Shown here piece after piece: positions 32,432 to 59,370 of a stretch of 64,000 nucleotides of DNA. Under the pieces are notes generated by a model. It was not told the DNA's origin and made no database searches. It saw only the letters and a list, made by a program, of their open reading frames with translations. The first letter of the stretch is position 1. Every line of letters starts with the position of its first letter. A program made the position numbers and the translations under genes. The stretch spans positions 20,967-84,966 of the forward strand of contig JAEEXZ010000002.1 in NCBI GenBank assembly GCA_016288055.1, read 5' to 3'. This DNA is from Bacteroidales bacterium (GTDB taxonomy: Bacteria > Bacteroidota > Bacteroidia > Bacteroidales > UBA932).

Positions 32432-32512
32432 GCGTCAATGATAAAAAAAAGACGGGCACGAAGGGTGCCCGTCGACTGTGAATAAACACAAAAATCATTA
32501 ACCAATAGAGTT

Positions 32513-35503: not shown

Positions 35504-35530
35504 AGTTTTAATGATTCATGTGTTAAACTG

Positions 35531-36547
35531 TTACCAGCCGAATCCGGCATTGGTATAGGCGCCGTCCTCTACGACGGGCTCGTAATCCCAGCCGTTGCCG
35601 CCGTCGATGTAGTAGGCATCGGGGGTGTCGCCGTTAACAACGGAGACGAGGAACTCGCGCTCCAGGCTGTAGCGAACCCCGGGCAGGAAGCGGGCGGGAG
35701 AGAGCTTGTTGGCCATGGTGTACTTGGTGCCGTTCTCGTCCACTACATAGAAGGAGAGGACGGAGTTGCCGGTGACGGCCGGCAGCAGGATGGCCGTGAA
35801 GAAGGGATTCTCTGTTGCGTCCTTGGTAATGCGTACGGCATTGGTAAGGGTAACCGTGACGGTGGAAGAACCGCCGGCGGCAGAGAGAGATCCGTTAGAG
35901 AGGGTAAGTTCGCAGGCGCCCACAATGGGACGGTTGTCCGCGATCTTGATGGTAAGCTGCTTGATGTAGATGGCATCCACGGCCGACGTACTCTTGAGCA
36001 CGGGCTTCACGCGGAGCATGGAGGTTACCGGGCCGAACTCGAAGTTCACCGGTTCGTAGCCCTCCGTAAGCGCCGCCGCAGTGAGGTCCGTGGAGGCGTA
36101 GCAGATCTGATACCTGCCGAACTCGCCGCTCTGGGCACTCGGAAGGTTCAGGGCCACCTTGCCGCCGACGCACGAGGACTCCGGGGCAAACATCTGGGGA
36201 TAGTAGGCGCAGAACGTAAGGTCTGCGGCACTCCCCGCCCAGGCGGAACGGCCCTCCGACGAGGCGAACACGGCGTCATTCCCCGTGCGCCAGGTGATGG
36301 GGGCGAACCCGCTGTGGACAAGGGCCGACGTATTGGCGTCGAAACTATAGACGCCCAGATTGTCGTACGAACTCCACACCAGGGTGCCATCATCCTCGTC
36401 GGAGAAGGTTGCCTTGGTGCTCACGGTTGAGCCCGTGAACGTCAAAGGCTCTTCATCCGCCCGGGGGCTCACAGCCCCGCCTTTTGCGCAGCCCGCAATG
36501 ACGGACAGCGACAGCAGCAGAATGATATATGATTGAATCTTTTTCAT
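35531..36547 (-). CDS. Fimbrillin-family lipoprotein (copy 1)
   Basis: Identical from CAKGGAVSPRADEE to the C-terminus with the 38877-39893 product. Confidence 0.78.
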   Translation of the reverse strand: MKKIQSYIILLLSLSVIAGCAKGGAVSPRADEEPLTFTGSTVSTKATFSDEDDGTLVWSSYDNLGVYSFDANTSALVHSGFAPITWRTGNDAVFASSEGRSAWAGSAADLTFCAYYPQMFAPESSCVGGKVALNLPSAQSGEFGRYQICYASTDLTAAALTEGYEPVNFEFGPVTSMLRVKPVLKSTSAVDAIYIKQLTIKIADNRPIVGACELTLSNGSLSAAGGSSTVTVTLTNAVRITKDATENPFFTAILLPAVTGNSVLSFYVVDENGTKYTMANKLSPARFLPGVRYSLEREFLVSVVNGDTPDAYYIDGGNGWDYEPVVEDGAYTNAGFGW

Positions 36548-36549
36548 GA

Positions 36550-38844
36550 TTAATGTTCTTTGACGCAGCGGACAGAGAAGCAGCTGGCACGACGCCCACC
36601 TGCATTATACGGATGAACAACGGTAGCAACAAAATATAGCATTGAGCCAGCATTGTTCTGATTTGCCGGTGAAGAAGTCCATACGGCTAAATTATCAGAC
36701 ACATTCGACAGAAAGGAGTACGCCCTTGATCGTTGACCTTGCGCCAGATAAAAATCCGTCGGGCCAGTCTTCCATCCCTGATAGTAAAATGCCCATCCAT
36801 TCGCATTATTGGGATTTACATAGTCACCAGTGGCGACATTAAACTGTTCTATTATTGAAGAATTCTGTCGTGTTGATGTAAAGCCCGCGAACAAATCTTG
36901 GGGTGCAACACGGAATCCTTCAGGGGAAGGATCAAAGATGGATTTATATATTTCCTCCATAATGGGGAATTTATTTGACCCACCTCCGTTTCCCCACAAA
37001 TTGTCATCAAGCGGGAGCCAACTATGAGAATATGCTAAATCGTCACAGAAAATACACATCCAAGGTTTAGCAATAGTATAATCAAGTATAAAGCGTCCAA
37101 GTGTTTTTGATTTATCAGAACCCTCCCACGCAAGTTTAAGAGTGTTTTTTTCAGAACTGCCGTTGGAATTCGAAAACCATATCCAACAATCCAACAAATT
37201 GCTCGCAGACACAGAATAGTCTGGATCGCCAAGGTTCAATGTGGAGATTTGATCAGAACCATATAAATTCAGAACACCTCCTCCGTTTAAAGAGTTAAAA
37301 TTCTTCGGCCTTCCCATAGGGTCTTTTCTACCCCACTGGTAATAGAACCCCGCAGCCGTTTCCGGATTAGACATACCGGGATAGGCCTTCTTGATGGCGC
37401 CAATGGGCATGGTCATTACGGTATAATTGCCGCTATTGGTTTGGGTGTATTCATACATGCCATCCGTGGGATCGTCCTCCGGGCACCAGATATGGTAACT
37501 CCACAGAAGCTTATCAGAGGCGTCGTAGATGCCCACCAGGGCATTGCCGGCGGCGGAGCCGCGTTTGATGGCGAGGAAGGATTTCCCGCTGCTGTCGGTG
37601 GAGATGGCGTCCGTTGCGCCAGCGGCGCTGTCGGCCATCTTCAGTTTATAGTCGTAGGCACTGCCATTGACGGTGGCGGAGGCGATGACATCGGCCCCCT
37701 CGCTCCAGATAATCCTGGCATAGGAGGCGGGGCGGGGATTCTGGACATCGGCGGTGTTCTTGGTGTTGTGCCAGAAACTGTCGGTCACGTACTGGGTGAC
37801 ATCCAGATAGCCAATCTCGTTGGGAGTGCGCAGGAGCAGGCAGTTGGTGCCGCCGTAATAGTAGAACTGGTCCACATCTGTCCGGAGCGTGGAAGTATAG
37901 GCCAGCAGCGTACCGCCCTGGGTGAAGTTTTTATCCACCGTTACAGGGAAAGTCAATCTTCTGCCCGCCTCGAAATCCTGCGTGGGTTTTCCGGTGAAAA
38001 CGAACTCATGGTCCGTGGTAGTAAGGGTAATCTTCAGGGTGGTGTTGGTGGTCACCCCGGGATAGAACACGAACATGGGCTGGATGAGCGCGGACATGGG
38101 TCTGGGCGTTGCGACGGTCCAGTCAATGTTGGTCACGGGATTGGTGATGGGGCCCAGCGTTGTGCCCGTCAGTTTGGCGCGGCCGCCCAGGGCAACGCCA
38201 TTGAGCGTGGATATCTGAATCCTTTCCACGCTCTCCATCATGAGGCTGCGGGCTTGGTCGGCCTGGGTAAAGTCGATAATAAAGCTACAGCAGGTTCCCA
38301 GCTGCTTGAATTTGAAGTTAGGAAGCCCGTCCTCCAGCTTGACGCTGCCGGGGACAGCCACTTTGATGTCATTATTGGTAAAGGTGAACGGAGAATCAGC
38401 GTTCCAGGAAGACAGTCCCCTTTCCGAGAAAGAGCCGCTCAAATCCTGGTTGTTGATATTCACATACAGTTCTCCATCCGTCAGTTCCGCGGCGCAGGCC
38501 GGGTAGATGGCGGTGAGGTCTGCCGGCGTGTTGTAGGAGGCAGGTGTCTGGCCGGGAGCCGGAAAGAATTTTCCGACCGGGGTACCGCCGCCAACCTTGA
38601 GTTTGTAATAGTGGAGCGCACCGTCGGTTCCCTTGACCGCAATCTGGTCGTCGGCGTTCCATACAACCACGCTGTTGGACTGTATGTTCGTCTTTGTATC
38701 ATCATCTCCCGTGGAAGCTGTAATCTCGGTAAGCAGGTACTTACCCTGTACACCTTCCCTGGGAGGATCTATTTCTTGTCTGTTGCACGACGCCAGGCCA
38801 AGGGCCGTTATGGCTGTCAGTGCCAGGAGTAAAAACTTTTTCAT
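36550..38844 (-). CDS. Fimbrillin-family lipoprotein with C-terminal FISUMP-like domain, diverged paralog of 33236-35503
   Basis: MKKFLLLALTAITALGLASCNRQEIDPPREGVQGKYLLTEITA; FDPSPEGFRVAPQDLF. Confidence 0.75.
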   Translation of the reverse strand: MKKFLLLALTAITALGLASCNRQEIDPPREGVQGKYLLTEITASTGDDDTKTNIQSNSVVVWNADDQIAVKGTDGALHYYKLKVGGGTPVGKFFPAPGQTPASYNTPADLTAIYPACAAELTDGELYVNINNQDLSGSFSERGLSSWNADSPFTFTNNDIKVAVPGSVKLEDGLPNFKFKQLGTCCSFIIDFTQADQARSLMMESVERIQISTLNGVALGGRAKLTGTTLGPITNPVTNIDWTVATPRPMSALIQPMFVFYPGVTTNTTLKITLTTTDHEFVFTGKPTQDFEAGRRLTFPVTVDKNFTQGGTLLAYTSTLRTDVDQFYYYGGTNCLLLRTPNEIGYLDVTQYVTDSFWHNTKNTADVQNPRPASYARIIWSEGADVIASATVNGSAYDYKLKMADSAAGATDAISTDSSGKSFLAIKRGSAAGNALVGIYDASDKLLWSYHIWCPEDDPTDGMYEYTQTNSGNYTVMTMPIGAIKKAYPGMSNPETAAGFYYQWGRKDPMGRPKNFNSLNGGGVLNLYGSDQISTLNLGDPDYSVSASNLLDCWIWFSNSNGSSEKNTLKLAWEGSDKSKTLGRFILDYTIAKPWMCIFCDDLAYSHSWLPLDDNLWGNGGGSNKFPIMEEIYKSIFDPSPEGFRVAPQDLFAGFTSTRQNSSIIEQFNVATGDYVNPNNANGWAFYYQGWKTGPTDFYLAQGQRSRAYSFLSNVSDNLAVWTSSPANQNNAGSMLYFVATVVHPYNAGGRRASCFSVRCVKEH

Positions 38845-38876
38845 AGTCTAAATGATTTTTGTGTTTCAAATGGGGT

Positions 38877-39893
38877 TTACCAGCCGAATCCGGCATTGGT
38901 ATAGGCGCCGTCCTCTACGACGGGCTCGTAATCCCAGCCGTTGCCGCCGTCGATGTAGTAGGCATCGGGGGTGTCGCCGTTAACAACGGAGACGAGGAAC
39001 TCGCGCTCCAGGCTGTAGCGAACCCCGGGCAGGAAGCGGGCGGGAGAGAGCTTGTTGGCCATGGTGTACTTGGTGCCGTTCTCGTCCACTACATAGAAGG
39101 AGAGGACGGAGTTGCCGGTGACGGCCGGCAGCAGGATGGCCGTGAAGAAGGGATTCTCTGTTGCGTCCTTGGTAATGCGTACGGCATTGGTAAGGGTAAC
39201 CGTGACGGTGGAAGAACCGCCGGCGGCAGAGAGAGATCCGTTAGAGAGGGTAAGTTCGCAGGCGCCCACAATGGGACGGTTGTCCGCGATCTTGATGGTA
39301 AGCTGCTTGATGTAGATGGCATCCACGGCCGACGTACTCTTGAGCACGGGCTTCACGCGGAGCATGGAGGTTACCGGGCCGAACTCGAAGTTCACCGGTT
39401 CGTAGCCCTCCGTAAGCGCCGCCGCAGTGAGGTCCGTGGAGGCGTAGCAGATCTGATACCTGCCGAACTCGCCGCTCTGGGCACTCGGAAGGTTCAGGGC
39501 CACCTTGCCGCCGACGCACGAGGACTCCGGGGCAAACATCTGGGGATAGTAGGCGCAGAACGTAAGGTCTGCGGCACTCCCCGCCCAGGCGGAACGGCCC
39601 TCCGACGAGGCGAACACGGCGTCATTCCCCGTGCGCCAGGTGATGGGGGCGAACCCGCTGTGGACAAGGGCCGACGTATTGGCGTCGAAACTATAGACGC
39701 CCAGATTGTCGTACGAACTCCACACCAGGGTGCCATCATCCTCGTCGGAGAAGGTTGCCTTGGTGCTCACGGTGGAGCCCGTGAACGTCAAAGGCTCTTC
39801 ATCCGCCCGGGGGCTCACAGCCCCGCCTTTCGCGCAGCCCGCGACAATCGCGGACAGCGACAGCAGCAGAATGATGCTTAGTTTGTTTTTCAT
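38877..39893 (-). CDS. Fimbrillin-family lipoprotein (copy 2)
   Basis: Near-identical DNA to 35531-36547 over about 1 kb. Confidence 0.78.
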   Translation of the reverse strand: MKNKLSIILLLSLSAIVAGCAKGGAVSPRADEEPLTFTGSTVSTKATFSDEDDGTLVWSSYDNLGVYSFDANTSALVHSGFAPITWRTGNDAVFASSEGRSAWAGSAADLTFCAYYPQMFAPESSCVGGKVALNLPSAQSGEFGRYQICYASTDLTAAALTEGYEPVNFEFGPVTSMLRVKPVLKSTSAVDAIYIKQLTIKIADNRPIVGACELTLSNGSLSAAGGSSTVTVTLTNAVRITKDATENPFFTAILLPAVTGNSVLSFYVVDENGTKYTMANKLSPARFLPGVRYSLEREFLVSVVNGDTPDAYYIDGGNGWDYEPVVEDGAYTNAGFGW

Positions 39894-39913
39894 AGCTTAT
39901 AATACATTAATAA

Positions 39914-41002
39914 TCAGAATGAACGGTCCTCATAGGCCCCGGTTCCGCTTCCCGGCATAACGCCGTCCTGATAAACACCAGGGGTTATTTCGCCATTAAA
40001 AGCGTTGGGGTCTTTCGTCACACACCACCAGGACTGGTGGGTATCACCCGCCGCAGATTCACTAGGGAACCTGGCAGTGTAGAATCCTTCATAGAGATCC
40101 AGGAAGGTATTACCTCCGCTGCTGAAATTTTGGCTTCTGTTTCTATGGAAGCCGACCACATAATTGTCGTTTTCCAACAGAAAAGTCAGTCCCAGATTTG
40201 TCCCACTCTGAAGAGTGTTGATGGGCAGCATGGGGACAAAACGTACCACATAGTCAGTTGCAGAGAATCTGGGAGCCGAAGTAAGCGTTATCGTGAAACT
40301 GTCCTTTGTTCCGGCATTCCTTGCGATGGAAGGCGTGCCGGACGAAAAAGTAACCGGGGCTTTTCCCGCAATGCCGGTGGCTTTGAAGGTGACGTTACTA
40401 ATAGTCTCACTTCTCAGGGTTTCATCGGACATGGTGACATTCAAAGCCATCAAACTGACCATACGGCTGAAACTCAGAACACCAGACAGGCTCGATGCCT
40501 TGAAACGCCTGGTAATCAGGATATCGTTGAATGTAAAAGGGTCATTCGCCGTCTTGGCGTTTGAATATGCATATCCACCGCTCTTCTCCCGATAGAGGTC
40601 GACATAAAGTTGCCCTCCTTCGACGGACACAGCGTCGTATGGATAAATGGCATGCAGGTTGTGCTTCCCAAAGTCAGGAGTTGCCTCGCCGGCAGCAAGG
40701 ACGAACGAGCCATCCTCGGATCCTACATAAGACGGATTCAGTTCATATTTATAGAACTGCCGCGTAGTCTCATCATAAACGGCCACGGCATCCCCGGACT
40801 TCCAGGACAATTTCATAGATAAGCTGCCCACTTCAGTTTTTGTATCCGTATCGTCCAGAAGTGGCACTTCCGTATAGCGAAGCGTCAACTGCCTTAGCTG
40901 ACCCGATGCAGATTCTGCATCATGGGTCAGCTGGCAGGACGCGCCACAAACGACGCCAATAATGGACAATATGAGTAGCTTATTCTTACTCATGGGTGTC
41001 AA
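39914..41002 (-). CDS. Fimbrillin-family lipoprotein
   Basis: Paralog of 47782-48879 (SFTITLTSAPRFSATDYVVRFVPMLPI / DQITVLLPNRPKMASAAAIVEFIPVFPI). Confidence 0.7.
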   Translation of the reverse strand: MTPMSKNKLLILSIIGVVCGASCQLTHDAESASGQLRQLTLRYTEVPLLDDTDTKTEVGSLSMKLSWKSGDAVAVYDETTRQFYKYELNPSYVGSEDGSFVLAAGEATPDFGKHNLHAIYPYDAVSVEGGQLYVDLYREKSGGYAYSNAKTANDPFTFNDILITRRFKASSLSGVLSFSRMVSLMALNVTMSDETLRSETISNVTFKATGIAGKAPVTFSSGTPSIARNAGTKDSFTITLTSAPRFSATDYVVRFVPMLPINTLQSGTNLGLTFLLENDNYVVGFHRNRSQNFSSGGNTFLDLYEGFYTARFPSESAAGDTHQSWWCVTKDPNAFNGEITPGVYQDGVMPGSGTGAYEDRSF

Positions 41003-41005
41003 GGA

Positions 41006-41107
41006 TTAGTCACCGGACTGTTCATCCGGAATACTCTGGCAGATAATCTGCTCGGTCTGGATGGTGAAAACCTCCGATTCGGGTGCAAAATACATTTCCT
41101 TTTTCAT
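41006..41107 (-). CDS. Small peptide ORF (33 aa) in the fimbrial operon
   Basis: MKKEMYFAPESEVFTIQTEQIICQSIPDEQSGD; not in the ORF track; stop is 3 nt before the next start. Confidence 0.6.
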   Translation of the reverse strand: MKKEMYFAPESEVFTIQTEQIICQSIPDEQSGD

Positions 41108-41147
41108 AACATTAATTTTTAAAGGGTTAAACATGGTTTAATGATTT

Positions 41148-42317
41148 TTATGTTTCTTCGTTCAAGGATGCGCCTTCGGCATAGGCGCCGGGGTTGGAGA
41201 TACCGCTGTTGGTGTCGTCTCCAGACCCATATTTTCCCGCCTCGCTGCCGTCCACGACGCGGTTCTGATAATCCCCTGCCTCAAGGCCGGGCAGGAATTG
41301 GTCAATATATTCGCCGGCGGTGGACGCTTCCACGGAAGGTGCTCCGCCCAGGCTCAAGGTGAGGCTGTAAGTAAAGACGCCGCCGGCTGGCCAGATGTGC
41401 TGGTCCAGAAGCCCTATCTCAAAGGCGGCCTCGAATTCCTCTTCCAGGCTATCGGCCGCATAAATCCCGTATTTCACGCGGAGGCGTGAGCTGGGCGCGA
41501 GGGTCTGCGGGATCAGGTAGAGCACGCCGGCGGGCAGGAGGAAGGAATCCGTGTAGGCAGGGGCCTGCGGGAGGGCGGAGGTAGTCACATCGGCCGCCGC
41601 AAGCGAGCCGTTTGCCGGGGTGAGGCTGTAAGACTCGGTGGCATAGGTGGCCAGATCCTCCGGGGCGGGGCTGTCCCAGTTGTAGCCGCCGCTGTAGAAG
41701 GTGACGGAACTGCTTCCGCGCACGTTCTCCAGCGCGATGGAACGGATCCGGACATCGAGCCCGCGGGAGACGACGCGCCGCACGAAGGGGTCCTCGCCCG
41801 TCCAGCGGGCTTTGAAGACCACCTGCGCGAGCGCGTGCGTAAACACCAGCGGCACGTTGCCGGAGGCCTGCGTCCGGTTCAGGACGGGCGTCGCCAGCAC
41901 CAGGTCTTCCTGCTGCGAGGGGGCCGATGCCACCGTGTAGCTGGCCACCGGAAAATCGCCGGACATCCCCGAGGGGAAGACCAGGGAGCCGTGGGCGGCG
42001 TCTGCGTGGTAGGGAGCGTAGGCATAGAAGGAAAGCGCGCAGCCAAAGGGCCAGTACGCGTTCCCGAGCCAGGTCCCCGAGCCGCCGTCGTAGGTAAAGT
42101 GCCGATTGTCAAGGTAAATGGACGTATCCCAGGCAAAAAGGCCGATCCCCGCGGTCTGCAGGGTTCCGGTAACGGTTTCGCCGGTGCCTTTCGTATGGGC
42201 ATCGGCCCGTGCTACGCATGCGATGGGCTGCCGCCCCCCTTCAGGGAGCGACAGCGGCGTGCACGCGGCTATTGACAGCCACGCCACTATCCATCGGTAT
42301 GCGAAAGGACGGGTCAT
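41148..42317 (-). CDS. Fimbrillin-family protein
   Basis: Paralog of 55943-57157 (DLVLATPVLNRTQAS / VDLCLATPVMDRAAS). Confidence 0.7.
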   Translation of the reverse strand: MTRPFAYRWIVAWLSIAACTPLSLPEGGRQPIACVARADAHTKGTGETVTGTLQTAGIGLFAWDTSIYLDNRHFTYDGGSGTWLGNAYWPFGCALSFYAYAPYHADAAHGSLVFPSGMSGDFPVASYTVASAPSQQEDLVLATPVLNRTQASGNVPLVFTHALAQVVFKARWTGEDPFVRRVVSRGLDVRIRSIALENVRGSSSVTFYSGGYNWDSPAPEDLATYATESYSLTPANGSLAAADVTTSALPQAPAYTDSFLLPAGVLYLIPQTLAPSSRLRVKYGIYAADSLEEEFEAAFEIGLLDQHIWPAGGVFTYSLTLSLGGAPSVEASTAGEYIDQFLPGLEAGDYQNRVVDGSEAGKYGSGDDTNSGISNPGAYAEGASLNEET

Positions 42318-42318
42318 T

Positions 42319-43302
42319 TTAGATACCTGCAGCGACTCCGGATGCTTCAGACCAGCTACCTACAGTGGCCGTCACCTTGATCTCGTGCATCGTGATACCA
42401 ATGTTGTAGGTATACTTGTAGCCAGGCTGCATGACCATATCTGCCGTATCAGGCGTTATTACGACTGAATAGGCATGACCGTCAAGCGTATAGTTCACTA
42501 CAAAAGAAGTAAAGGAAGCCCCATTCGCGGTAGGGTTGGGCACAATCAGAAGGCCGTCACCGACAGTCCGGGCGGTACCATCTACGGTGATGGATGACAC
42601 ATTGGGAACGGAGACATTATTCTCCTTTGTGGCGGAAGCATACGCCGTCGCATCCCATGAAGGGGTCGCAGTCAGCGTTTCAGAAGAGCTATTGTAGTTT
42701 GCAAGATTAACAGTAAGTGTTCCAGTATATGCAGCACCGTTCAACTTGATGCCAGTCACTGCCAGGCCTGTACCGGCAGTACCGGAAACGGTAAACTGTA
42801 CCCAGGACAGGGCATGCTTGAAAGTAAGGGGTACATTGCTGCTGGGGTTCGATGCCTGTGCGCAGGCATACATCAAGTCATGCTGGGCGGTTTTATTGTT
42901 CTCGAGTGCGACAACAACTTTACTGGCATAATTGGCATTATCCGTACCGAATGTGGTCGTGGAACTACCAGCTTTAGTCACGGCAAGGAAGTTAAGTGTT
43001 TCCGAATTAAGCGGCCAATACTTTTTGGAACCCGATACACCGGACCAAGTAGTAGTAGATGATTCATTGGCAAACTCGGCTCCATCAAAATAGTCACCAG
43101 AGCCTGCTGCGTAAGCGGCAACGTAGAAATGATAATCCGTAGGGAAGACCGTGTTGGCAACCGGTGCCTTCGTAGTAGGCTTGGCCAGAAGCGAGAAGGC
43201 GATCTGGCGGGATTCAGGACTGCCTGTGTAGACGTCCTTGACTTTGGCGCAACTCACGAGCGCGAGAGCTGCGACGGAAAGAAGAATAAAGTACTTTTTC
43301 AT
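42319..43302 (-). CDS. Fimbrillin-family (Mfa1-like) lipoprotein
   Basis: MKKYFILLSVAALALVSCAKVKDVYTGSPESRQIAFS; paralog at 53792. Confidence 0.75.
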   Translation of the reverse strand: MKKYFILLSVAALALVSCAKVKDVYTGSPESRQIAFSLLAKPTTKAPVANTVFPTDYHFYVAAYAAGSGDYFDGAEFANESSTTTWSGVSGSKKYWPLNSETLNFLAVTKAGSSTTTFGTDNANYASKVVVALENNKTAQHDLMYACAQASNPSSNVPLTFKHALSWVQFTVSGTAGTGLAVTGIKLNGAAYTGTLTVNLANYNSSSETLTATPSWDATAYASATKENNVSVPNVSSITVDGTARTVGDGLLIVPNPTANGASFTSFVVNYTLDGHAYSVVITPDTADMVMQPGYKYTYNIGITMHEIKVTATVGSWSEASGVAAGI

Positions 43303-43347
43303 AGTAAGGTTTAAATTTGATTGTTTTCTTGTTGATGTATATATGGA

Positions 43348-44280
43348 CTAACCGATGGGAACGTCAATCTCCTCTCCTTGCCACGGGTTCACCGCTGGAG
43401 AAAAGCCGCCCGTTCCTTCCGGTTCAGGAATGTCAATTTCTTCTTCGATTTCGATCACATGCCGGGGTGCGACCACTTTCTCCGTGATGTCCATGGAGTA
43501 GTTGTGTTCGTCGCCGCCCGTGTCACGCATGATAAAATGTACGTATGTTTCGCTTTCTTTGTCGGTCCTTACGCCAAAGGTATTGAAGACGGCTGTGAGG
43601 GTGCCTTTCTCGCGGTTCACCTCCACCGGGAACCAGATGGTGCAAGGTTCGTCGGAGGCCTCTCCCCTGCCGATGAAATAGCTCCGGGACTGGTTGGTCA
43701 CAAATGCCTCGGCACTCTCCACGTACTCGAGGCCTGTGAGCTGGGTCATCTCGAAGGAGAAGGTCTGTACCACTGTGGAAGCATCGGCATGCAAGCTCGC
43801 AGCGCGGATCTCTCCGGTGAATTCCTGCACGGTCACTTCTTCCTTGGCGACGAGGAGGTGGTCCGGCATATAGACGATGGGGTCGTCCAGCGCTTTGGTG
43901 GAGAAGCGCCTGTAGCTCTTCATCTTGGATGCTGTGATGTCGGAGGTGAAGGCTTCGATGGTTTCCAGGGAGCTTTCTCCGCGTATCTGCACGTATTCTG
44001 TTCCGAAGGTATATACTAATAAAGTGTAGGTGCCGGGGGCTATGGTTACGTCGCCGCCTTCGCTTCCTACAAAGTGGGTGTTGGAAAGCATGCCCGTTTC
44101 CCAGCCGTAGAAGTTGGCCATGAAGTGTTCGGGGACGGCTATGGCATTGTCTTCCAGGTCGCTGGAAAGGTCAAGGGCCAGTTCCAGTTTCACGGACTTG
44201 TCCTTTTCATATATCGGCATGAAACGGCAGGAAGGCAGCAGGAGAAGGAGGGCTGCCATACTTGTTACGGCTTTTCTCAT
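43348..44280 (-). CDS. DUF5119-like lipoprotein of fimbrial operon
   Basis: YVQIRGESSLETIEAFTSDITASK conserved with the 52826-53746 product. Confidence 0.6.
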   Translation of the reverse strand: MRKAVTSMAALLLLLPSCRFMPIYEKDKSVKLELALDLSSDLEDNAIAVPEHFMANFYGWETGMLSNTHFVGSEGGDVTIAPGTYTLLVYTFGTEYVQIRGESSLETIEAFTSDITASKMKSYRRFSTKALDDPIVYMPDHLLVAKEEVTVQEFTGEIRAASLHADASTVVQTFSFEMTQLTGLEYVESAEAFVTNQSRSYFIGRGEASDEPCTIWFPVEVNREKGTLTAVFNTFGVRTDKESETYVHFIMRDTGGDEHNYSMDITEKVVAPRHVIEIEEEIDIPEPEGTGGFSPAVNPWQGEEIDVPIG

Positions 44281-44891
44281 TGCCCACCTCCTTTTTTCTT
44301 GAATACCGTGAGGGGGACGACGACGGACACGCCGGCCTTCACCGGGCCGAAGTAGCGGATGTCCTTGGCCATGTCCTTTTCTGCGTAAGCCGGTCCGCCG
44401 GGTTCGTACACCCGGTACTCCCTGGCCCGGGAAAGGAAGAAACCCAGTCCCAGGGAGAACTCCAGGCGTAAACGGTTCCCTATGACGGGAACGGCAAACA
44501 TATAATCTATACCGACGCTTCCGAATCGGCCCTGATAGCCGTGGAAGTTGCGTTCAACATCATATTTCCCGGCCATGCCGAAGGCTCCGACCGAGTGGCC
44601 CTCGAAGGGCTTTGTGAACCAGTATCGGCCCTCAAGGGAAGCGGCGAGGGCCTGGAGGGCATTGGCGTTTGAGCCGAGGGTGCGAGGGATCCAGGGGTAG
44701 TACCAGTCTGCGCCGAGGGTCCAGTTGGCGGCCACGGCTACTTCCACGCCTATGTTGAGAAGGGGTATAGCCAGCGCATTGGTGCGTACGGCAACATCCC
44801 CCGCGCCTGTCTGCGCCGGCCTTGCGGCCATTGCATGCACGGTGATAAATACTGTTAGCAGCGTGAGGATATGTTTACAGGCGGGCCTCAT
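44277..44891 (-). CDS. DUF3575-like outer-membrane protein
   Basis: VRTNALAIPLLNIGVEVAVAANWTLGADWYYPW; paralog at 52203. Confidence 0.75.
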   Translation of the reverse strand: MRPACKHILTLLTVFITVHAMAARPAQTGAGDVAVRTNALAIPLLNIGVEVAVAANWTLGADWYYPWIPRTLGSNANALQALAASLEGRYWFTKPFEGHSVGAFGMAGKYDVERNFHGYQGRFGSVGIDYMFAVPVIGNRLRLEFSLGLGFFLSRAREYRVYEPGGPAYAEKDMAKDIRYFGPVKAGVSVVVPLTVFKKKGGGQ

Positions 44892-45127
44892 TGTGGTTCT
44901 TTTTCGAGGAATAATTAGTCCTCATCTGTTGGGCGCCTGATTACAGTTAGTCTTAGCGCGTTTCATAGTTTAGTTCTTGTTATTCAGTCATCTATGCGGG
45001 GGCTGGTTAGACCCCTTGTCCGTTCAATTTATCGAACGTTTATTTACACACCTTTTGTCCCTATCCCCAGCCTCTCCTCCCTGCGTCCTTTCGTGGGTAT
45101 TTCATGGCCCTTTTTGCAGGGCCCTTT

Positions 45128-48902: not shown

Positions 48903-51900
48903 ATGAAAAACGAATATCTGATTCCGGCATTAGTGCTTTTGATTCTGGCCGGATGTTATAAGGAGCAGGAACCGATACAGGAGGGCTCCATTCCCCGGAA
49001 GGGGACATTCAACTTCTCCAGTTCCACTGGAGAGGTGACCAAAGTGTTGCTGAACTCCGACAATACCCTTTTCTGGGCTAGCGGAGACAAGATTGCCGTG
49101 TATGATTACAAGGCAGGATCCGTATATGCGAAGGATATCGCCGTCCTTACGGGCGGTGAAAGTACGGCTGTGGGTACCTTTACCCCTGCCGTCAAGACAA
49201 CCAATACAGATTGGTATAACGCAGCGGACGCCTCTGACCAGGTGTATAATTTCTATGCATTCTACCCTGGCGGCACAGAAGCCGTGAATCCTACCGATGG
49301 CAAAGTGACCGTGAGTGTTGCTGCCTCCCAGCAGGAATCCGTCGGCATTGGCAAGTACATTGTTAGCTGGGCCAGTGCCAATACCACCAAGCAGAACCTT
49401 GCTGGTGGCTCGGCGCCCAACTTCGCATTCGCTCCCAAGAGCGCATTGCTCAAGCTTACTCTGCAAAACAGTGCTGACATCCCGGTGAAGATTACCTCCA
49501 TCCAGATTAGCGCCGCATCCGTGAATATTGCGGGTGATGCTAACCTGAATCTGGGTACCGGTGTCTTGTCTGCAGGTAGCGGAAAGGTAATTACCTACAT
49601 ACCCAGTAAGCCCATCGAAATTGCTGCCGGTGCAGTTGCTTCTGCACCAGTGTACATTTCATTACTGCCTGGCGCTCCCGATTCCTTGACCGTGACTCTC
49701 AACCAAGCTGGTTTCAAATACAATTCCCCTAGCATTGCTCTGGCGACCATTGAGTCGGGTCATGTGTATTCCAAAGAGGCTGCAATCAGCAGCGTGAGCC
49801 GTGAGCTGGCCATCTCTAATGATAACACAACTAACTTGGCAGATGCCGCCGCAATGGACTCTGATCCGAATCTCTACTATGGCACGTCAAACTGCGTGGT
49901 TATGGATGCTAGCGATATCCAGGGTATCATTGCTATTGGTCTTTACAGTTCCGATGATGGTTACACACGCAACAACTCTTCCGCAGGAAAGGATACTGCG
50001 GTCAAGAAGGCCAAGGTGATTTGGGCGGAGAAAGGTCTTTACGAAGATCCGAACTTCTGCATTGCTTCCGGTACAACGAACATGCTTGTCGTGACCAAGT
50101 CTGCTGGTGTCACTGGCAATGCTTTGATTGGTATCTACGATGGTAACGATGGACTCCTGTGGAGTTATCATGTCTGGTGCCCGTTTGATAAGTCTGTCAT
50201 GAGTGTCACTACAGAAAAGACGTCTACGAAGTATACTGCCTTCAAACTTGCCCTGGGCCAGATTACCGGTGCAGACAGTGATACTTATATGTACTATCAG
50301 TGGGGACGAAAGGACCCGTTGGGACGTGCAAATCCTGGCTTTATTGGGAAGAGCCTCTTGACGGTATATGGCGATGTGCCCACTACTTGGGCTACTGAGA
50401 ATGGCCGCACAAGAACAGGTGTGACGGCAAATAACATTGCATATGCACGTAAAAATCCGACCGTTTTCATTACAGATAATAATTCGACACCTTATGACTG
50501 GTACCCTGGATCTGATGCGACTCAGAACAACAACCTTTGGGTGACGACAAAGGCGACCATTTTTGACCCCTGTCCTCCGGGTTACCGTGTCGCGCCTAAG
50601 ACTCTTTGGGATGGCACCAAGGACAAGGAGGCTAGTCCTTTGTTTGAGTCCGCAGGGCTTTGGTATGTCCTTGGTGGCGGCCGTGATCGCTCGGATGGCA
50701 GCGTCAGCAGTGTGGCGTCCGGCGGCCACTACTGGTCCTCCGAGGTTTCGGGTTCGTCGGTGGGCGCGTACTACTTGTACTTCAATTCGGGCACGCGCTC
50801 GCTCCGAGAGAACATCTACCACCGCGCGAGCGGCTACGGGGTGCGCTGCGTCAAAGAAGACGACAGCAGCATCAAGCGCGAAATAGCCATCTCCAACAGC
50901 AACAGTGGTGAAAACCTGGCCAACTCCGCTGCGCTTGACGCCGCCTATGCCGACGACGAGACCGATGCCTCGTCCCTCTACTACGGTGCAGCCAACTGCG
51001 TGGTTATGGGCGCCAGCGACACCCGCGCGCTCATCGACATCAGGCTCAAGAAGTCTACCGACGGCTACTCCCGCAGCGGCGCCGACCCTTCCCCCAAGGT
51101 GACCGCCGTCAAGAAGGCCAAGGTCATTTGGGCCGAAGCAGACCTCTACCGTGATTCCAATTTCGGTATTGCCGCCGGAACTGTTAGTCAGCTGGTTATC
51201 CAAAAGTCTGCCGGTACCACCGGTAACGCCCTCGTGGGTATCTACGACGAGTCCGACCAGCTCCTGTGGAGCTACCACATCTGGTGCCCCGTGGACCGTA
51301 GCGTAGTGTCCGCCACTTCCGAGGATGCTTCTCCCTTCACCTACCAGGCTTACAAACTGGCCCTTGGTCAGATCCTGGGCGCCGACTGCGACACCTACAT
51401 GTACTACCAGTGGGGCCGAAAGGATCCTCTGGGTCGAGCGGAGAGCTCCTTTACGGGCGGTGGTAGCCTTGCCGCCACGTACGGTGTTGCTTTCTCAAAC
51501 AAAGGCCATTCTTCGACTGGTGAAACTGTTCATAATCTTGGCTACGCTCGAAAGAATCCTACCGTATTCATTTCGGACGGTAACACCACGCCTTACGATT
51601 GGTATAATCCAATGGATAAAACAAATCAGAACGACAACTTGTGGAAGTCCGATATAGCAACCATTTTCGATCCTTGCCCGCAGGGCTACCATGTTGCTCC
51701 CAAGAAACTCTGGGCTGGCAATGCCGCCAAGGTCGCAGGTCCTCTGTTTGAGTCCGCAGGGCTTTGGTATGTCCTTAGTGGCTACCGTGTTCGCACGAGT
51801 GGCAACGTCTACGATGTGGCGTCCAACGGCTACTACTGGTCCTCCGAGGCTGTTGGTGGGGCTTCTCAGTACTCCTACCACCTGAACTTCAGTTCCGGCG

Positions 51901-51965
51901 CTGGCCTGAACCGAGCGCGCAACGACTACCGCGCGAGCGGTTTCGGGGTGCGCTGCGTCAAGTGA
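48903..51965 (+). CDS. Fimbrillin-like adhesin with two tandem FISUMP-like/C-type-lectin-like domains
   Basis: Lipobox LILAGC; duplicated MYYQWGRKDPLGRA...FDPCP.GY.VAPK.LW...YWSSE...FGVRCVK. Confidence 0.78.
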   Translation: MKNEYLIPALVLLILAGCYKEQEPIQEGSIPRKGTFNFSSSTGEVTKVLLNSDNTLFWASGDKIAVYDYKAGSVYAKDIAVLTGGESTAVGTFTPAVKTTNTDWYNAADASDQVYNFYAFYPGGTEAVNPTDGKVTVSVAASQQESVGIGKYIVSWASANTTKQNLAGGSAPNFAFAPKSALLKLTLQNSADIPVKITSIQISAASVNIAGDANLNLGTGVLSAGSGKVITYIPSKPIEIAAGAVASAPVYISLLPGAPDSLTVTLNQAGFKYNSPSIALATIESGHVYSKEAAISSVSRELAISNDNTTNLADAAAMDSDPNLYYGTSNCVVMDASDIQGIIAIGLYSSDDGYTRNNSSAGKDTAVKKAKVIWAEKGLYEDPNFCIASGTTNMLVVTKSAGVTGNALIGIYDGNDGLLWSYHVWCPFDKSVMSVTTEKTSTKYTAFKLALGQITGADSDTYMYYQWGRKDPLGRANPGFIGKSLLTVYGDVPTTWATENGRTRTGVTANNIAYARKNPTVFITDNNSTPYDWYPGSDATQNNNLWVTTKATIFDPCPPGYRVAPKTLWDGTKDKEASPLFESAGLWYVLGGGRDRSDGSVSSVASGGHYWSSEVSGSSVGAYYLYFNSGTRSLRENIYHRASGYGVRCVKEDDSSIKREIAISNSNSGENLANSAALDAAYADDETDASSLYYGAANCVVMGASDTRALIDIRLKKSTDGYSRSGADPSPKVTAVKKAKVIWAEADLYRDSNFGIAAGTVSQLVIQKSAGTTGNALVGIYDESDQLLWSYHIWCPVDRSVVSATSEDASPFTYQAYKLALGQILGADCDTYMYYQWGRKDPLGRAESSFTGGGSLAATYGVAFSNKGHSSTGETVHNLGYARKNPTVFISDGNTTPYDWYNPMDKTNQNDNLWKSDIATIFDPCPQGYHVAPKKLWAGNAAKVAGPLFESAGLWYVLSGYRVRTSGNVYDVASNGYYWSSEAVGGASQYSYHLNFSSGAGLNRARNDYRASGFGVRCVK
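50641..50854 (+). other. Variable-region-like segment 1 (DGR-VR candidate)
   Basis: TGTTTGAGTCCGCAGGGCTTTGGTATGTCCTT...TACGGGGTGCGCTGCGTCAA; aligns to 51745-51961 with differences mostly at codon positions 1-2. Confidence 0.5.
51745..51961 (+). other. Variable-region-like segment 2 (DGR-VR candidate)
   Basis: See segment 1; located at the C-terminus of the adhesin. Confidence 0.5.
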
Positions 51966-52103
51966 TTTTACCGACCCGCCCCCTCTTTTCATAAGAGGGA
52001 GGAGGCGGGTCATCCCATGAAATATCCCGTCATGCGGCGGGCATCCAAAAGCACGCCGCAATATTATTAAAACAATCTATTGTTAGCTGCGCACAAACTG
52101 TAG

Positions 52104-52190
52104 GGTGATAGCAAATTCGGTGGTCCACGGCTATCCACTGTTGGCTCTTCCGGCATAAACGCCTTCGGGGTGCGCTGCGTGAAAGAATAA
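52104..52190 (+). pseudogene. Orphan C-terminal fragment of a FISUMP-type adhesin
   Basis: Reads GDSKFGGPRLSTVGSSGINAFGVRCVKE* after an in-frame TAG; no gene upstream in frame. Confidence 0.65.
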
Positions 52191-52202
52191 GAAACATTGA
52201 TT

Positions 52203-52829
52203 ATGTCCATATCCCCTCGGCTGTTACTATTGTTTGCCACGCTTGTTGCGAGCGTGGCAGGCAATAGCGCGGGGGCAGCGAAACCACAAAAGGAGCCGCC
52301 CGTCGCAGTTGCCGCGCGTACCAATGTGCTGGCTGTGCCGTTTCTGAATCTGGGGGCGGAAGTGTCCCTGGGCCGTCACTGGTCCATCGGCGCGGACCTG
52401 TACTATCCCTGGCTGCGGCGTGTGAAGGGTTCCGAGGGGATGGATTACAGCGGGAAATGTGTGCAGATTATGGCCGGCGGGCTGGAGCCGCGTTATTGGT
52501 TCGGCGGGAGCGGGCGGCTTGTGGGGTTTGGTATCGGCCTGCTTGCCATGGGCGGTTACTACGACCTGGAATGGGACTACCACGGTTATCAGGGAGAGTT
52601 TGTGAGTGGCGGGCTTGACTTTGTTTATGCCTGCCCTGTCTTTAAGGACAGGCTGCGGCTGGAGTTCTCTCTCGCGCTGGGCTATCTGTATTCCCGGGCC
52701 AGGGAGTACCAGACATACTGGGCTGGAGGCCAGGCTTTTACCGAAAAAGGAATGGCCAAGGATATTCATTTCGTGGGCCCGGTGAAGGCCGGAGTCTCTC
52801 TTGTGCTTCCAATCCGCATCAAGAAATGA
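52203..52829 (+). CDS. DUF3575-like outer-membrane protein
   Basis: ARTNVLAVPFLNLGAEVSLGRHWSIGADLYYPW; start approximate (Met at 52197 or 52203). Confidence 0.72.
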   Translation: MSISPRLLLLFATLVASVAGNSAGAAKPQKEPPVAVAARTNVLAVPFLNLGAEVSLGRHWSIGADLYYPWLRRVKGSEGMDYSGKCVQIMAGGLEPRYWFGGSGRLVGFGIGLLAMGGYYDLEWDYHGYQGEFVSGGLDFVYACPVFKDRLRLEFSLALGYLYSRAREYQTYWAGGQAFTEKGMAKDIHFVGPVKAGVSLVLPIRIKK

Positions 52830-53746
52830 AAGTATTATTACATGGGGCGCTGTCCCTTCTCTGTCTTCTGTCATGTGAACGTATGCCGCTCTACGTGAGG
52901 GAACCGTATGTGAAACTGACTCTGGAATTGAACCTGGAAGAGGGCAAGATTCCCGAGCCGGAGCACATGAAGGCGTGTTTCTTCGCTCCGGACGGCGGCG
53001 GGCTTTATAATACCCAATTTGTGGGTAGCGACGGCGGTAATTTGTCCGTTGCTTCAGGTAGCTATACCCTGCTGGTGTATTCCTTCGGCACGGAGTACAT
53101 TCAAATCCGCGGAGAGAGTTCCCTGGAAACCATAGAGGCCTTCACCTCGGACATTACCGTTTCAAAGCACACGGCCTTCCGAAGGCTTACAGGAACAAAG
53201 GCAGGAGAGGACGCCCCCATTTTTTATGCGCCGGACTATTTGCTGGTGGCCATGACCACGGTCGAAGTGCCGGAGTTCACCGGCGAGAATACGCTTGCCG
53301 AGGTTGCTCTGGAGCCCTCGTCCGTCGTGCAGACTTACTCTTTTGAAGTGACTAACGTGCACGGGGTTGACTATGTAGAGAGCGCAGAGGCGTATGTGAC
53401 CAACCAGGCGCGTTCGTACTTCATCGGCCGCATGCAGCCTTCCACTGAACCGGCGACGCTGTGGTTTCCCATAGAGGTGGACAAGGAGAAGGCCGTCTTG
53501 AATGCTTCATTCAATACATTCGGTGTGCTTCCGGGCGGCAGCGAGACTTACATCCATTTTGTGGTGCGCAGTTCCGGCGGCCAGGAGGTTACTTTCTCCA
53601 AAGATATTTCCGAGCAACTGGCTGCGCCGGAGCACAGGATTACAGTAGATGACGAGATTACTATCCCCAAGCCGTCGGGGCCCAGCGGTTTCTCTCCCGA
53701 AGTGGATCCCTGGGAGGAGGAAATACGCGACGTTCCCATCGGCTGA
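52826..53746 (+). CDS. DUF5119-like lipoprotein of fimbrial operon
   Basis: YIQIRGESSLETIEAFTSDITVSK; paralog of 43348-44280. Confidence 0.6.
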   Translation: MKVLLHGALSLLCLLSCERMPLYVREPYVKLTLELNLEEGKIPEPEHMKACFFAPDGGGLYNTQFVGSDGGNLSVASGSYTLLVYSFGTEYIQIRGESSLETIEAFTSDITVSKHTAFRRLTGTKAGEDAPIFYAPDYLLVAMTTVEVPEFTGENTLAEVALEPSSVVQTYSFEVTNVHGVDYVESAEAYVTNQARSYFIGRMQPSTEPATLWFPIEVDKEKAVLNASFNTFGVLPGGSETYIHFVVRSSGGQEVTFSKDISEQLAAPEHRITVDDEITIPKPSGPSGFSPEVDPWEEEIRDVPIG

Positions 53747-53791
53747 TTCCATATGAACCATTATTCAATCATTTTTTACACAACTAAAGCT

Positions 53792-54763
53792 ATGAAAAAA
53801 ATCCTTTTGACTCTTTTCGTCACAATGCTTCCCCTTGTAAGCTGCGTGAAATCCCGCGACGTTTATGTCGGCTCCTCCGACGCGCGTCAGATTTCCTTTT
53901 CCCCGCTGGCGCAGCCGGTGACAAAGGCCGCTGTAGAGGGGACCACATTCCCCAATCAGGCCATGTACGTAGCCGCATACGATGCGACCGCCGGGGCCAA
54001 TTACTTCGACGCGACTGCTTTCTCGCAGGACGGAAGTACCGGCAGCTGGAAATCTACTCCCGCAACGTTCTGGCCCCTGAACACAGCCACGCTTAACTTC
54101 CTGGCCTATAGCGGTGTGTCTTCCGGTGCCACCTGGAATTCCACCAATCCTGCCAGCGGTGTAGAGATTGTGCTGGCCAACAATGCCACCAATCAGTATG
54201 ACCTGATGTATGCCTGCGGCCGTCAGTCCAGGACCAGCGGATCGGCCGCAACCAGTATTGCCTTGCCTTTCAAGCATGCCATGGCACTCATCAAGTTTAC
54301 GGCATGCACTGCCGCCAATTATGGAAATCGCATGAAGATCACCAGCATCGTGCTCACCGGAGCTCACTACGCGGGCACCTACCGCGTCACTCATACCGGC
54401 TGGAATTCAGCCACCGATGCACAAAGTGTCGCCGGTACATGGGATTCCGTCGGTTCGGAGGCCAATGTGTCCATAACGCCTTCCTGGGAGAATGAGAATG
54501 CCGTGACAACCACCGCCCAGCAGGTCGGAGCCGGCATCCTGGTCGTTCCCGACGACGACGACACCAAGGACGACTACACCGGTTTTACCATCAATTATAC
54601 CATCGATGGCCATGGCTACAGTTATAATTACGCCCCGGCGGACCTTGATGTGCACCAGGCCAAGAAGTACATCTTCGCCATCAGCATGACGCTGAACGAG
54701 ATTGTCATTGTTCCTTCCGTCGTGGATTACGCAGAAGAAGGCAACAACGGCGTTACCATCTAA
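53792..54763 (+). CDS. Fimbrillin-family (Mfa1-like) lipoprotein
   Basis: MKKILLTLFVTMLPLVSCVKSRDVYVGSSDARQISFS; paralog of 42319-43302. Confidence 0.75.
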   Translation: MKKILLTLFVTMLPLVSCVKSRDVYVGSSDARQISFSPLAQPVTKAAVEGTTFPNQAMYVAAYDATAGANYFDATAFSQDGSTGSWKSTPATFWPLNTATLNFLAYSGVSSGATWNSTNPASGVEIVLANNATNQYDLMYACGRQSRTSGSAATSIALPFKHAMALIKFTACTAANYGNRMKITSIVLTGAHYAGTYRVTHTGWNSATDAQSVAGTWDSVGSEANVSITPSWENENAVTTTAQQVGAGILVVPDDDDTKDDYTGFTINYTIDGHGYSYNYAPADLDVHQAKKYIFAISMTLNEIVIVPSVVDYAEEGNNGVTI

Positions 54764-57158: not shown

Positions 57159-57611
57159 ATGAACAGATTCATTTATCTCATACTGCTACTGGCGACCTGT
57201 ACTTGCCGAAACTCCGCGCTCACGCCCGCCGAATACTATAATCTGGGCCGATACGCCCGTCTGGACGGAGACTGGTCGGCCGCCGTCGGGTACTTTGAGA
57301 AGGCGCTGGATGCGGCGGAATGGGCTGGTGACGACTACTACCGGGGCTACGCATGCCAGCAGCTTGCCGCCATGTGGATCCTGGCCGGGGAAAAAGCAAT
57401 TGCTTTGTCTTACTCCATAACGGCGGTTGCTGCCCTTGAGGCCTGCGGCGAGACTGCCGGAGCCTTCCTCTCCCAGCAGATTATCAAGGATTGCGAGGCG
57501 TCACCCGTACAAAAGGCCGCGGAGGTGAAGCCAGCGGTAGAGGGTTGTGCGACTGCAGCCGATGTCGCGCGCAATGGCCGCCACGGGCCGATGGGAATTC
57601 AACAGCAGTAG
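57159..57611 (+). pseudogene. 3'-truncated TPR-like lipoprotein gene
   Basis: Paralogy to 33235-32513 stops after ETAGAFLS (about 57475); the ORF tail is antisense to the recombinase C-terminus. Confidence 0.65.
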
Positions 57612-58106
57612 AATGACGTCCCTGTGCCGGTCAAGTTTTTTCATGACGGTTGTACTGCCCTTCGGCCTGCCCAGGGCTACGCCCTCGGCTTTCTTGCGAG
57701 CCAGCGCTTCGCGGGTTCGGATGGAGATAAGCTGACGCTCTATCTCGGCCGCAAGCCCGAACGTAAATGCCAGCACCTTTGACTGGATATCCTCCCCCAG
57801 ACGAAATCTTTCCTTGACGGTCCACACTCGACATTCCTTCTTGAGACAGATGTTCAGGATGTTCATGATCATGAACAGGCTTCGGCCCAGACGGGAGAGC
57901 TCGGCACAAATGATGACATCTCCCTTTCGGACTTGCTTCAGAAGCTCTCCCAGTTTACGTTCTGTTGTTTCCAGTGTCCCGGAAACTGTTTCCTGAATCC
58001 AGACATCGACGTGCAAGTTCTCACTCCGGCAATAATTAATGATTTCGAAACGCTGATTCTCCAGCGTCTGACGGTCTGTGGAGACACGGATATAAGCATA
58101 AGTCAT
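57501..58106 (-). CDS. Serine recombinase (resolvase/invertase family)
   Basis: MTYAYIRVSTDRQTLENQR, ICAELSRLGRS, GRPKGST, C-terminal HTH VAAIARDIGCSRTTLYRWL. Confidence 0.92.
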   Translation of the reverse strand: MTYAYIRVSTDRQTLENQRFEIINYCRSENLHVDVWIQETVSGTLETTERKLGELLKQVRKGDVIICAELSRLGRSLFMIMNILNICLKKECRVWTVKERFRLGEDIQSKVLAFTFGLAAEIERQLISIRTREALARKKAEGVALGRPKGSTTVMKKLDRHRDVILLLLNSHRPVAAIARDIGCSRTTLYRWLHLRGLLYG

Positions 58107-58207
58107 AACGGTTAACAAATAGTTTACCCTTATGTAAACAAATAGCCTGCTTAAAGGTGGTGACTTGTCCTGACCACCCACTCGTGAATCAGAGGGGACC
58201 ATGCAAT

Positions 58208-58260
58208 GCGGCGGGGTATGAAGTACGGCGGATAGATCCTTCGCTTCGCTCAGGATGACA
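58208..58260 (-). repeat. L repeat, inverted copy
   Basis: Reverse complement of the 53-bp L repeat (one variant base in GAGCGAAGCG). Confidence 0.93.
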
Positions 58261-58274
58261 ATGAGTATAAAATA

Positions 58275-58296
58275 ACTCCGCCGGGATGGGCGGAGC
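58275..58296 (-). terminator. Candidate terminator after rpn3
   Basis: Minus-strand GCTCCGCCCATCCCGGCGGAGT followed by TATTTTA. Confidence 0.6.
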
Positions 58297-58309
58297 AATT
58301 AATGATAGA

Positions 58310-58344: not shown

Positions 58345-59370
58345 TTACTGATTCAAGGCTTCGATTTCGTTCTTTGAGAGGCCGGTATATGCCATGACCT
58401 TCTCTACCGTCATTCCATCTTTCAACAAAGCCTTGGCTACTTCGGCCTTACCTTCTGCCTTACCTTCTGCCTTACCTTCTGCTTTACCTTCGGCCAAACC
58501 GTCGGCCTTGCCAAGATCGAAACCTTCGGCCTTACCGAGGTCGAAGCCTTCACGAAGGCCTTCTTCCTTGTAGAAGGCGGCGATGCCTTTTTCTTCTCGT
58601 TCTGTAATCATGGCGCGAAAGTATTGTTCCAGTTCTTTGACTTGTAACCGGCCACGCTGACAGGCGGCGAAAATCGAATCGTAACGTTTGCTGATGGTGG
58701 CTGGTTTCTCTGCAAAGTTACTCATATTCTGCAAAATGTCAAACCATTCCTCAATCGGAGTCTTCGCTTCCTCCAGTGGTTTGACCCATCTGGGCAGTTC
58801 GCACAGGTAGATGGATAGCTGCTGACCATAGAGTTCACCGGAGTCTTGTTCACGGACCTGAAAACGATACACCAGTTGGTCCGTGTCATGCAATAGGCGG
58901 AAATTCATGAAACAGATAACGTAAACCGGAACCAACTTGTCATAGTTATCACCCGGATTCAACTGCCGGGCCAATGACGCTGCTCCGTAGTAAAGCATAC
59001 GGTTACGGAACTCGTTGCTGCCGCACTTCTGCATCTCCACGATGAACTTACGGTCCTTAGTGTGACAGATGACATCCATGATGACCTGCTTGTCGTCACC
59101 CCGGAGCATGTCCCTCTCGTTGGGATCATACTCGATGTCGATAATCTCTTCCGGTAAGAAGTCATTCAAGAGCAGCATCAGATTATCCTTGTTGTGGCCG
59201 AAGACATGTTTGAAGGCCCAATCGCAGAGGAGGTCGATGTACGTGGTGGATGTGATCTGTACGATCAGGTTTTCCTTCTCTTCTTTCGAGAGGTTCCGGC
59301 ACTTCTCGTACTCGTTCAAGAAGGCCATGAATTTTTGCTGCTGTTCTTTGGTCAGTTTGTTTTCTTGCAT
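58345..59370 (-). CDS. Rpn-family nuclease/putative transposase (rpn3)
   Basis: Near-identical to rpn1 except for an expanded EGKA/EGFDLGKA repeat tract; no downstream duplicate. Confidence 0.85.
   Translation of the reverse strand: MQENKLTKEQQQKFMAFLNEYEKCRNLSKEEKENLIVQITSTTYIDLLCDWAFKHVFGHNKDNLMLLLNDFLPEEIIDIEYDPNERDMLRGDDKQVIMDVICHTKDRKFIVEMQKCGSNEFRNRMLYYGAASLARQLNPGDNYDKLVPVYVICFMNFRLLHDTDQLVYRFQVREQDSGELYGQQLSIYLCELPRWVKPLEEAKTPIEEWFDILQNMSNFAEKPATISKRYDSIFAACQRGRLQVKELEQYFRAMITEREEKGIAAFYKEEGLREGFDLGKAEGFDLGKADGLAEGKAEGKAEGKAEGKAEVAKALLKDGMTVEKVMAYTGLSKNEIEALNQ

Follow-up and report, generated by a model that had tools for sequence, protein, structure and literature searches.

A predicted Bacteroidales surface adhesin with two candidate DGR variable repeats

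The adhesin gene and its surroundings

The window, by which we mean the whole 64,000-nucleotide stretch of DNA analysed here, corresponds to positions 20967-84966 of contig C63 in an assembly of 2.05 Mb (90 contigs, 87.5% complete, 5.7% contamination), and its end coincides with the contig end, some 12 kb past the gene described below. This gene encodes a predicted surface lipoprotein, with a lipobox-like LAGC near the start as read from the sequence, an N-terminal region of about 300 residues, and two tandem domains of about 360 residues each (Table 1). In a profile search, the N-terminal region yielded no match to Mfa_like_1. The protein matches both TIGR02145 Fib_succ_major (7e-8) and PF07603 Lcl_C (3e-4) weakly, below the cut-off; a C-type-lectin-like fold of the two domains is putative. 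The predicted structures for domain 2 and its putative lectin part reached pLDDT values of 41.5 and 34, respectively, too poor for a structure search. No sequence relative of the variable domain was found in the PDB, where a 15-member profile gave matches at chance level only. The product is likely to serve as a surface adhesin.

Table 1. Features of the adhesin gene and its neighbourhood (positions in the window)
Feature	Position	Strand	Remarks
Lipoprotein-like gene, 365 aa	47782..48879	+	Directly upstream of the adhesin gene
Predicted surface lipoprotein adhesin (target gene), 1020 aa	48903..51965	+	ORF; N-terminal region, then two tandem FISUMP/Lcl_C-like domains
Domain 1 (internal)	49800..50855	+	62% amino acid identity to domain 2
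VR1, internal candidate variable repeat	50641..50854	+	Third positions kept, differences at positions 1-2; variable sites coincide with adenine columns of related TRs
Anomalous middle tract of VR1	50745..50768	+	8 codons (9 in VR2, 51849-51875); all codon positions differ, one-codon indel
Domain 2 (C-terminal)	50877..51962	+	From the domain-to-domain alignment
VR2, C-terminal candidate variable repeat	51745..51961	+	As VR1, plus DNA similarity to the TR and VRs of same-genus DGRs
Imperfect GC-rich inverted repeat	51970..52010	+	Just downstream of VR2, 9 bases past its end
Fossil VR tail (GDSKFGGPRLSTVGSSG//INAFGVRCVKE-stop)	~52104..52190	+	Looks like a remnant of another FISUMP copy; internal deletion of ~30 codons
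DUF3575	52197-52829	+	Fimbrial neighbourhood
DUF5119	52826-53746	+	Fimbrial neighbourhood
Mfa_like_1 fimbrillin	53753-54763	+	Fimbrial neighbourhood (52197..54763) downstream of the adhesin gene

The order of the upstream lipoprotein-like gene and the adhesin gene recurs at another locus, L015, where a 348-aa protein precedes a single-domain adhesin of 669 aa. At about 32500-44900 there is a fimbrial cluster in mirror-image arrangement, which contains two more FISUMP proteins (33236-35503 and 36550-38844); these two proteins were considered as further VR carriers and rejected, since their C-termini are too different. Each of them adjoins one of two 338-aa genes on the reverse strand (35531-36547 and 38877-39893), which are identical over more than 800 bases. 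With the neighbouring FISUMP C-termini differing strongly, this gene pair would suggest a duplication or conversion that is recent, with binding ends that have diverged. Elsewhere in the window, the ORFs 31169-32158 (+) and 58345-59370 (-) are near-identical (98.5% over 200 aa); we take them to resemble Rpn/PD-(D/E)XK transposase-family proteins, and the ORF beside one of them (57501-58298) is presumably serine recombinase-like.

Codon pattern of the two domain tails

Diversity-generating retroelements (DGRs) are mutation machines that shuffle receptor-binding sites. The first-pass annotation had read the tails of the two domains as DGR-like variable repeats, on the basis of listed codon pairs that differ only at positions 1-2, and our codon alignment of VR1 with VR2, and of domain 1 with domain 2, reproduced every one of these pairs. 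Upstream of the VRs, the two domains differ at 79, 64, and 169 sites at codon positions 1, 2, and 3 over 270 aligned codons, which bears out the annotation's statement that third-position differences are frequent in the rest of the duplicated domain. In the last 64 codons, the corresponding counts are 23, 17, and 8, as compared to 17, 18, and 40 in the preceding 80 codons (Fisher p=5.5e-5). The heavy divergence of silent sites outside the VRs indicates that the domain duplication is old, while their near identity inside the VRs indicates that the tails were templated recently.

The contrast is sharpest in the first 34 codons of the VRs, where VR1 and VR2 differ at 8, 7, and 0 sites at positions 1, 2, and 3. 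Ten of these codons are changed, half of them at both position 1 and position 2. At the upstream rate, the probability of finding no third-position difference in 34 codons is 3e-15, an approximate value that treats codons as independent. In the last 28 codons, the counts are 10, 7, and 3, and on the same approximation the probability of three or fewer third-position differences is 2e-8. The start of the tract is sharp: 32 bases in a row are identical from 50641/51745 onwards, and the sequence ahead of them shows no identity. At the other end stands a GC-rich, 18-base run, CGGGGTGCGCTGCGTCAA, identical in both VR1 and VR2 and a candidate for the GC-rich end (IMH) of a DGR variable repeat.

Between these two parts lies the scrambled middle with a one-codon indel that the annotation had also described, and the alignment confirms it. 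The 8 codons of VR1 and the 9 codons of VR2 differ here at all positions, so the confinement to positions 1-2 does not extend to this tract. Outside it, the variable bases are limited to positions 1-2 and the third bases are fixed, save for three third-position differences. Among the variable codons outside the middle tract, 19 of 23 have a common C or T as the third base, as expected of AAY codons. Since 24 of 36 invariant codons also end in C or T, this shared third base is a weak feature by itself.

Templates in the genus and a search for the machinery in the assembly

Do related DGRs carry a template that could have written such tails? We examined a set of 400 same-genus genomes (G-numbers below denote genomes of this set, and L-numbers denote loci). 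A DGR-type RT related to that of G013 is present in 38 of them. The surroundings of the RT loci were searched for ungapped repeats with adenine-biased mismatches, and a strong TR/VR pair was found in 34 of 39 loci. In these pairs, 625 of 647 mismatches fall on template adenines, a proportion into which some bias is built because the search rewards adenine mismatches; runs of 14/14, 21/21, and 24/24 adenine mismatches over 180-193 bases are far beyond this bias. About a dozen of the genus TRs read ASGYRNNNDGSLNNVGNNGNYWSASP..NLNFN.....NNNNRANGYSVRCL, a motif shared with the two domain tails, and targets with the same motif occur in G013, G365, G380, G209, G077, G361, G088, G173, and others. When the VR2 region was used as a DNA query against the 400 genomes, the best foreign match was the TR of G074's DGR; a VR of G074, a VR of G312, and a TR-like stretch beside the RT of G290 matched as well. 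One relative of the adhesin domain comes from Bacteroidales bacterium RGIG7808, of water-buffalo reticulum. A phage origin was considered and rejected, as viral contigs contained no relative of the domain or of the 3′ motif.

The DGR of G013 (L077) has the cassette order target (Mfa_like_1 + Fib_succ_major), MutS_I-like gene, bAvd, TR, and RT. Its target belongs to the same C-terminal family as the adhesin domains, with the VR motif R-x-x-x-x-G-x-L/V-x-x-V-x-S-x-G-x-Y-W-S ... R-A-x-G-F-x-V-R-C-V and variable bases at codon positions 1-2. In contrast, it bears one C-terminal VR with an adjacent RT and TR, while the adhesin described here has two VRs in an assembly with neither. The remote FISUMP genes of G013 were tried as further VRs of its TR and rejected, because only 28/94, 24/84, and 25/62 of their differences fall on adenines.

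We then made codon alignments of VR1 and VR2 with 12 related TRs from other species, which were not picked by their fit to the variable sites. The position 1-2 sites that differ between VR1 and VR2 fall on majority-A columns of these TRs in 28 of 40 cases, as compared to 16 of 84 identical sites (p=5e-8). As a positive control with a known TR, two G209 targets of one TR gave 13, 15, and 5 differences at positions 1, 2, and 3 in the VR, and 14, 8, and 30 upstream. The negative control, a tandem domain pair of G287, gave 24, 18, and 34, and 25, 29, and 42, corresponding to ordinary divergence.

In the adhesin's own assembly, RVT_1 had no match at E<=10, although at 87.5% completeness this does not establish true absence, and no relative of the DGR RT of G013 was found. 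The bAvd model gave no match either; since it is also silent in several genomes of the genus whose TR/VR pairs are proven, its silence is not discriminating. A DNA repeat search of the assembly detected no TR, and no VR-like repeat beyond VR1, VR2, and the fragment at ~52104-52190, with no further intact 3′ motif. Thus, the check for an RT and a template repeat in the full genome, proposed with the first-pass annotation, found neither in the 2.05 Mb assembly. With no DGR RT in the assembly, we class the adhesin as an orphan DGR-like target rather than a complete DGR, and we infer the machinery. The DGR reading of the annotation therefore holds in part: the pattern is well supported by same-genus DGRs, with their RT, adenine-rich TRs, same-motif targets, and matching adenine columns, while the assembly has yielded no RT, TR, or Avd and the middle tract does not fit one template.

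Could the tails have arisen with no retroelement at all, by ordinary gene conversion of the C-terminal tracts and subsequent strong diversifying selection on surface residues? An assembly lacking RT and TR would be expected in that case, and the middle tract with its indel does resemble ordinary divergence or recombination. Nevertheless, we consider this explanation very improbable: the first 34 codons changed in 10 places without a single third-position difference, the changes coincide with the template adenines of other species' TRs, and real TRs exist for same-motif targets in the genus.

A proposed history of the two repeats

We propose, at a probability of about 85% and judging from sequence comparison, that the adhesin gene is a DGR target, and that both tails were overwritten after an old domain duplication by a DGR that is unassembled, trans-acting, or lost. 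A fimbria-associated surface lipoprotein would have gained a second FISUMP/Lcl-type (C-type-lectin-like) domain copy; because silent sites have diverged freely between the two domains, this acquisition must be old. Later, the last ~70 codons of each domain would have been overwritten from essentially one TR by mutagenic retrohoming, which is the most parsimonious account of the pattern. The AAC/AAT codons of the TR would be copied with random bases at the adenines, which would scramble positions 1-2 and leave the third positions fixed. Such a TR would match both VRs at all non-adenine bases, ending in CGGGGTGCGCTGCGT. VR1 may have been written directly, or may have received copies of VR2 by gene conversion. 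The outcome would be an adhesin with two heads, whose binding surfaces vary independently of each other. The element itself may be missing from a MAG of ~88% completeness, may act in trans from elsewhere, or may since have been lost.

A single template does not account for the middle tract or for the three other third-position differences. Since the genus TRs themselves vary in length where the middle tract falls, successive TR versions or two TRs may have contributed to it.

If the element was lost, it may have acted after the domain duplication and left the VRs frozen when the RT and TR were deleted. This relic version of the DGR history we regard as possible, though short of probable. It would account for the lack of RT, Avd, and TR in the assembly, and the three third-position differences and several of the middle ones could be drift since the last homing. 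The fossil VR end with its internal deletion, just downstream between the adhesin gene and the DUF3575 gene, also fits the loss of a DGR, without proving it. In this fragment, ..KFGGPRLSTVGSSG is followed directly by INAFGVRCVKE-stop, the middle of the FISUMP tail being deleted. We tested it as the lost TR and rejected it, because it has the VKE-stop end of a coding VR, T instead of A at the Y/F site, and no middle part of ~30 codons; from its sequence, it looks like a fossil coding VR. Against a relic stand the incompleteness of the assembly (87.5%, in 90 contigs), the existence of remote, trans-acting elements (PMC10907252), and the near lack of silent differences, which points to recent writing.

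How could an internal VR be reached? The inverted repeat downstream of VR2 is possibly a DGR hairpin or cruciform, or else a transcription terminator. Most genus VRs have a downstream inverted repeat, as VR2 does, while the genus TRs rarely do. No inverted repeat or hairpin was found after VR1, where coding sequence continues. In phage BPP-1, a downstream hairpin is required for efficient homing (PMC3240598). Lacking a downstream hairpin, VR1 may therefore accept new copies inefficiently, or may obtain its sequence from VR2 by gene conversion. Strong hairpins lie 10-50 bases downstream of most VRs, and rarely of TRs, at about 20 genus DGR loci besides L077, and by analogy this pattern would extend the BPP-1 hairpin rule to the genus.

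A DGR history in which only VR2 is, or was, a retrohoming site, and VR1 took older VR2 versions by intragenic gene conversion, would explain why the GC-rich inverted repeat follows VR2 at 9 bases, as in most genus VRs, and does not follow VR1, which runs on into coding sequence; the long homologous stretches common to both domains would also favour such conversion. VR1 and VR2 would in that case differ solely at template adenines, even with VR1 never written by the DGR. We hold this history to be rather unlikely, as homogenisation has a sharp limit at 50641/51745 and spares the flanking domain, similar as it is, several VRs per target are diversified elsewhere (PMC10907252), and the inverted repeat after VR2 may serve as a terminator instead. 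Only tentatively do we suggest that VR1 and VR2 are both live recipients of one trans-acting DGR, forming two independently hypermutated heads, with VR1 working without a hairpin. The adhesin would offer a natural experiment on the requirements of an internal VR: protein and template are the same, and one site has a downstream hairpin and the other does not.

Relation to known DGR targets

Fib_succ_major/Mfa lipoproteins are published DGR targets (PMC4159848). Among them, the HMP target SRS014459.31157, an Mfa2 + Fib_succ_major lipoprotein, resembles the adhesin in being fimbria-associated and in bearing its VR in a C-terminal Fib_succ_major domain, but a single such domain is described there (PMC4159848). 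DGR diversification of Bacteroides tip pilins is likewise on record: according to the paper that cites Macadangdang et al. (PMC12632263), the type V pilus tip pilins are surface fimbrial Bacteroidales proteins with a DGR-diversified C-terminal binding domain, and in this they would be like the adhesin.

The first-pass annotation had regarded an internal and a C-terminal VR in one polypeptide as unusual, yet there is precedent. Several VRs in one ORF are reported for 31 of 271 multi-VR DGRs (PMC6642488) and for the three tandem FGE paralogs of Marichromatium (PMC3521204), and Thiohalocapsa has tandem VR-bearing CLec domains, with a DGR acting in trans and VRs of unequal activity (PMC10907252). 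The targets of Thiohalocapsa PB-PSB1 DGR 4/5 and Marichromatium purpuratum would share with the adhesin several VRs per polypeptide on tandem lectin-type domains, both internal and C-terminal (PMC10907252, PMC3521204). They differ from it in having three tandem VR-bearing CLec domains, in being putative conflict-system sensors with vWA domains, in their gammaproteobacterial hosts, and in their known RT and TR. As tandem VR-bearing domains in one protein have already been published, the two-VR adhesin is a variant of a known system. The principle of several VRs per target is already known; what would be added to the known DGR targets is a surface adhesin from a Bacteroidales gut lineage that is two-headed and doubly diversified. 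Moreover, when a MAG contains no RT or TR, internal duplicates may suffice to reveal a DGR target, the signs being old silent divergence outside the VR and templated identity inside it.

Among the genus DGRs, none of the 34 loci has two VRs in one ORF. Three loci do have two VRs, either in separate genes or with one of the ORFs truncated where the stretch ends. A further pair of orphan targets is found at L110 (G287:C5), where two FISUMP genes near the contig end, with VR ends at 3291 and 6541, show a DGR footprint of 12, 14, and 8 differences at the three codon positions, as compared to 13, 9, and 35 upstream; the only RT found in G287 is far off, at C5:165485. At L160 (G294:C60), the repeat just before the RT (~2689-2919) is a mosaic, with a 3′ part that is all NNNN like a TR and a VR-like 5′ part that includes non-N residues; here a VR may have overwritten a TR, or the assembly may be chimeric.
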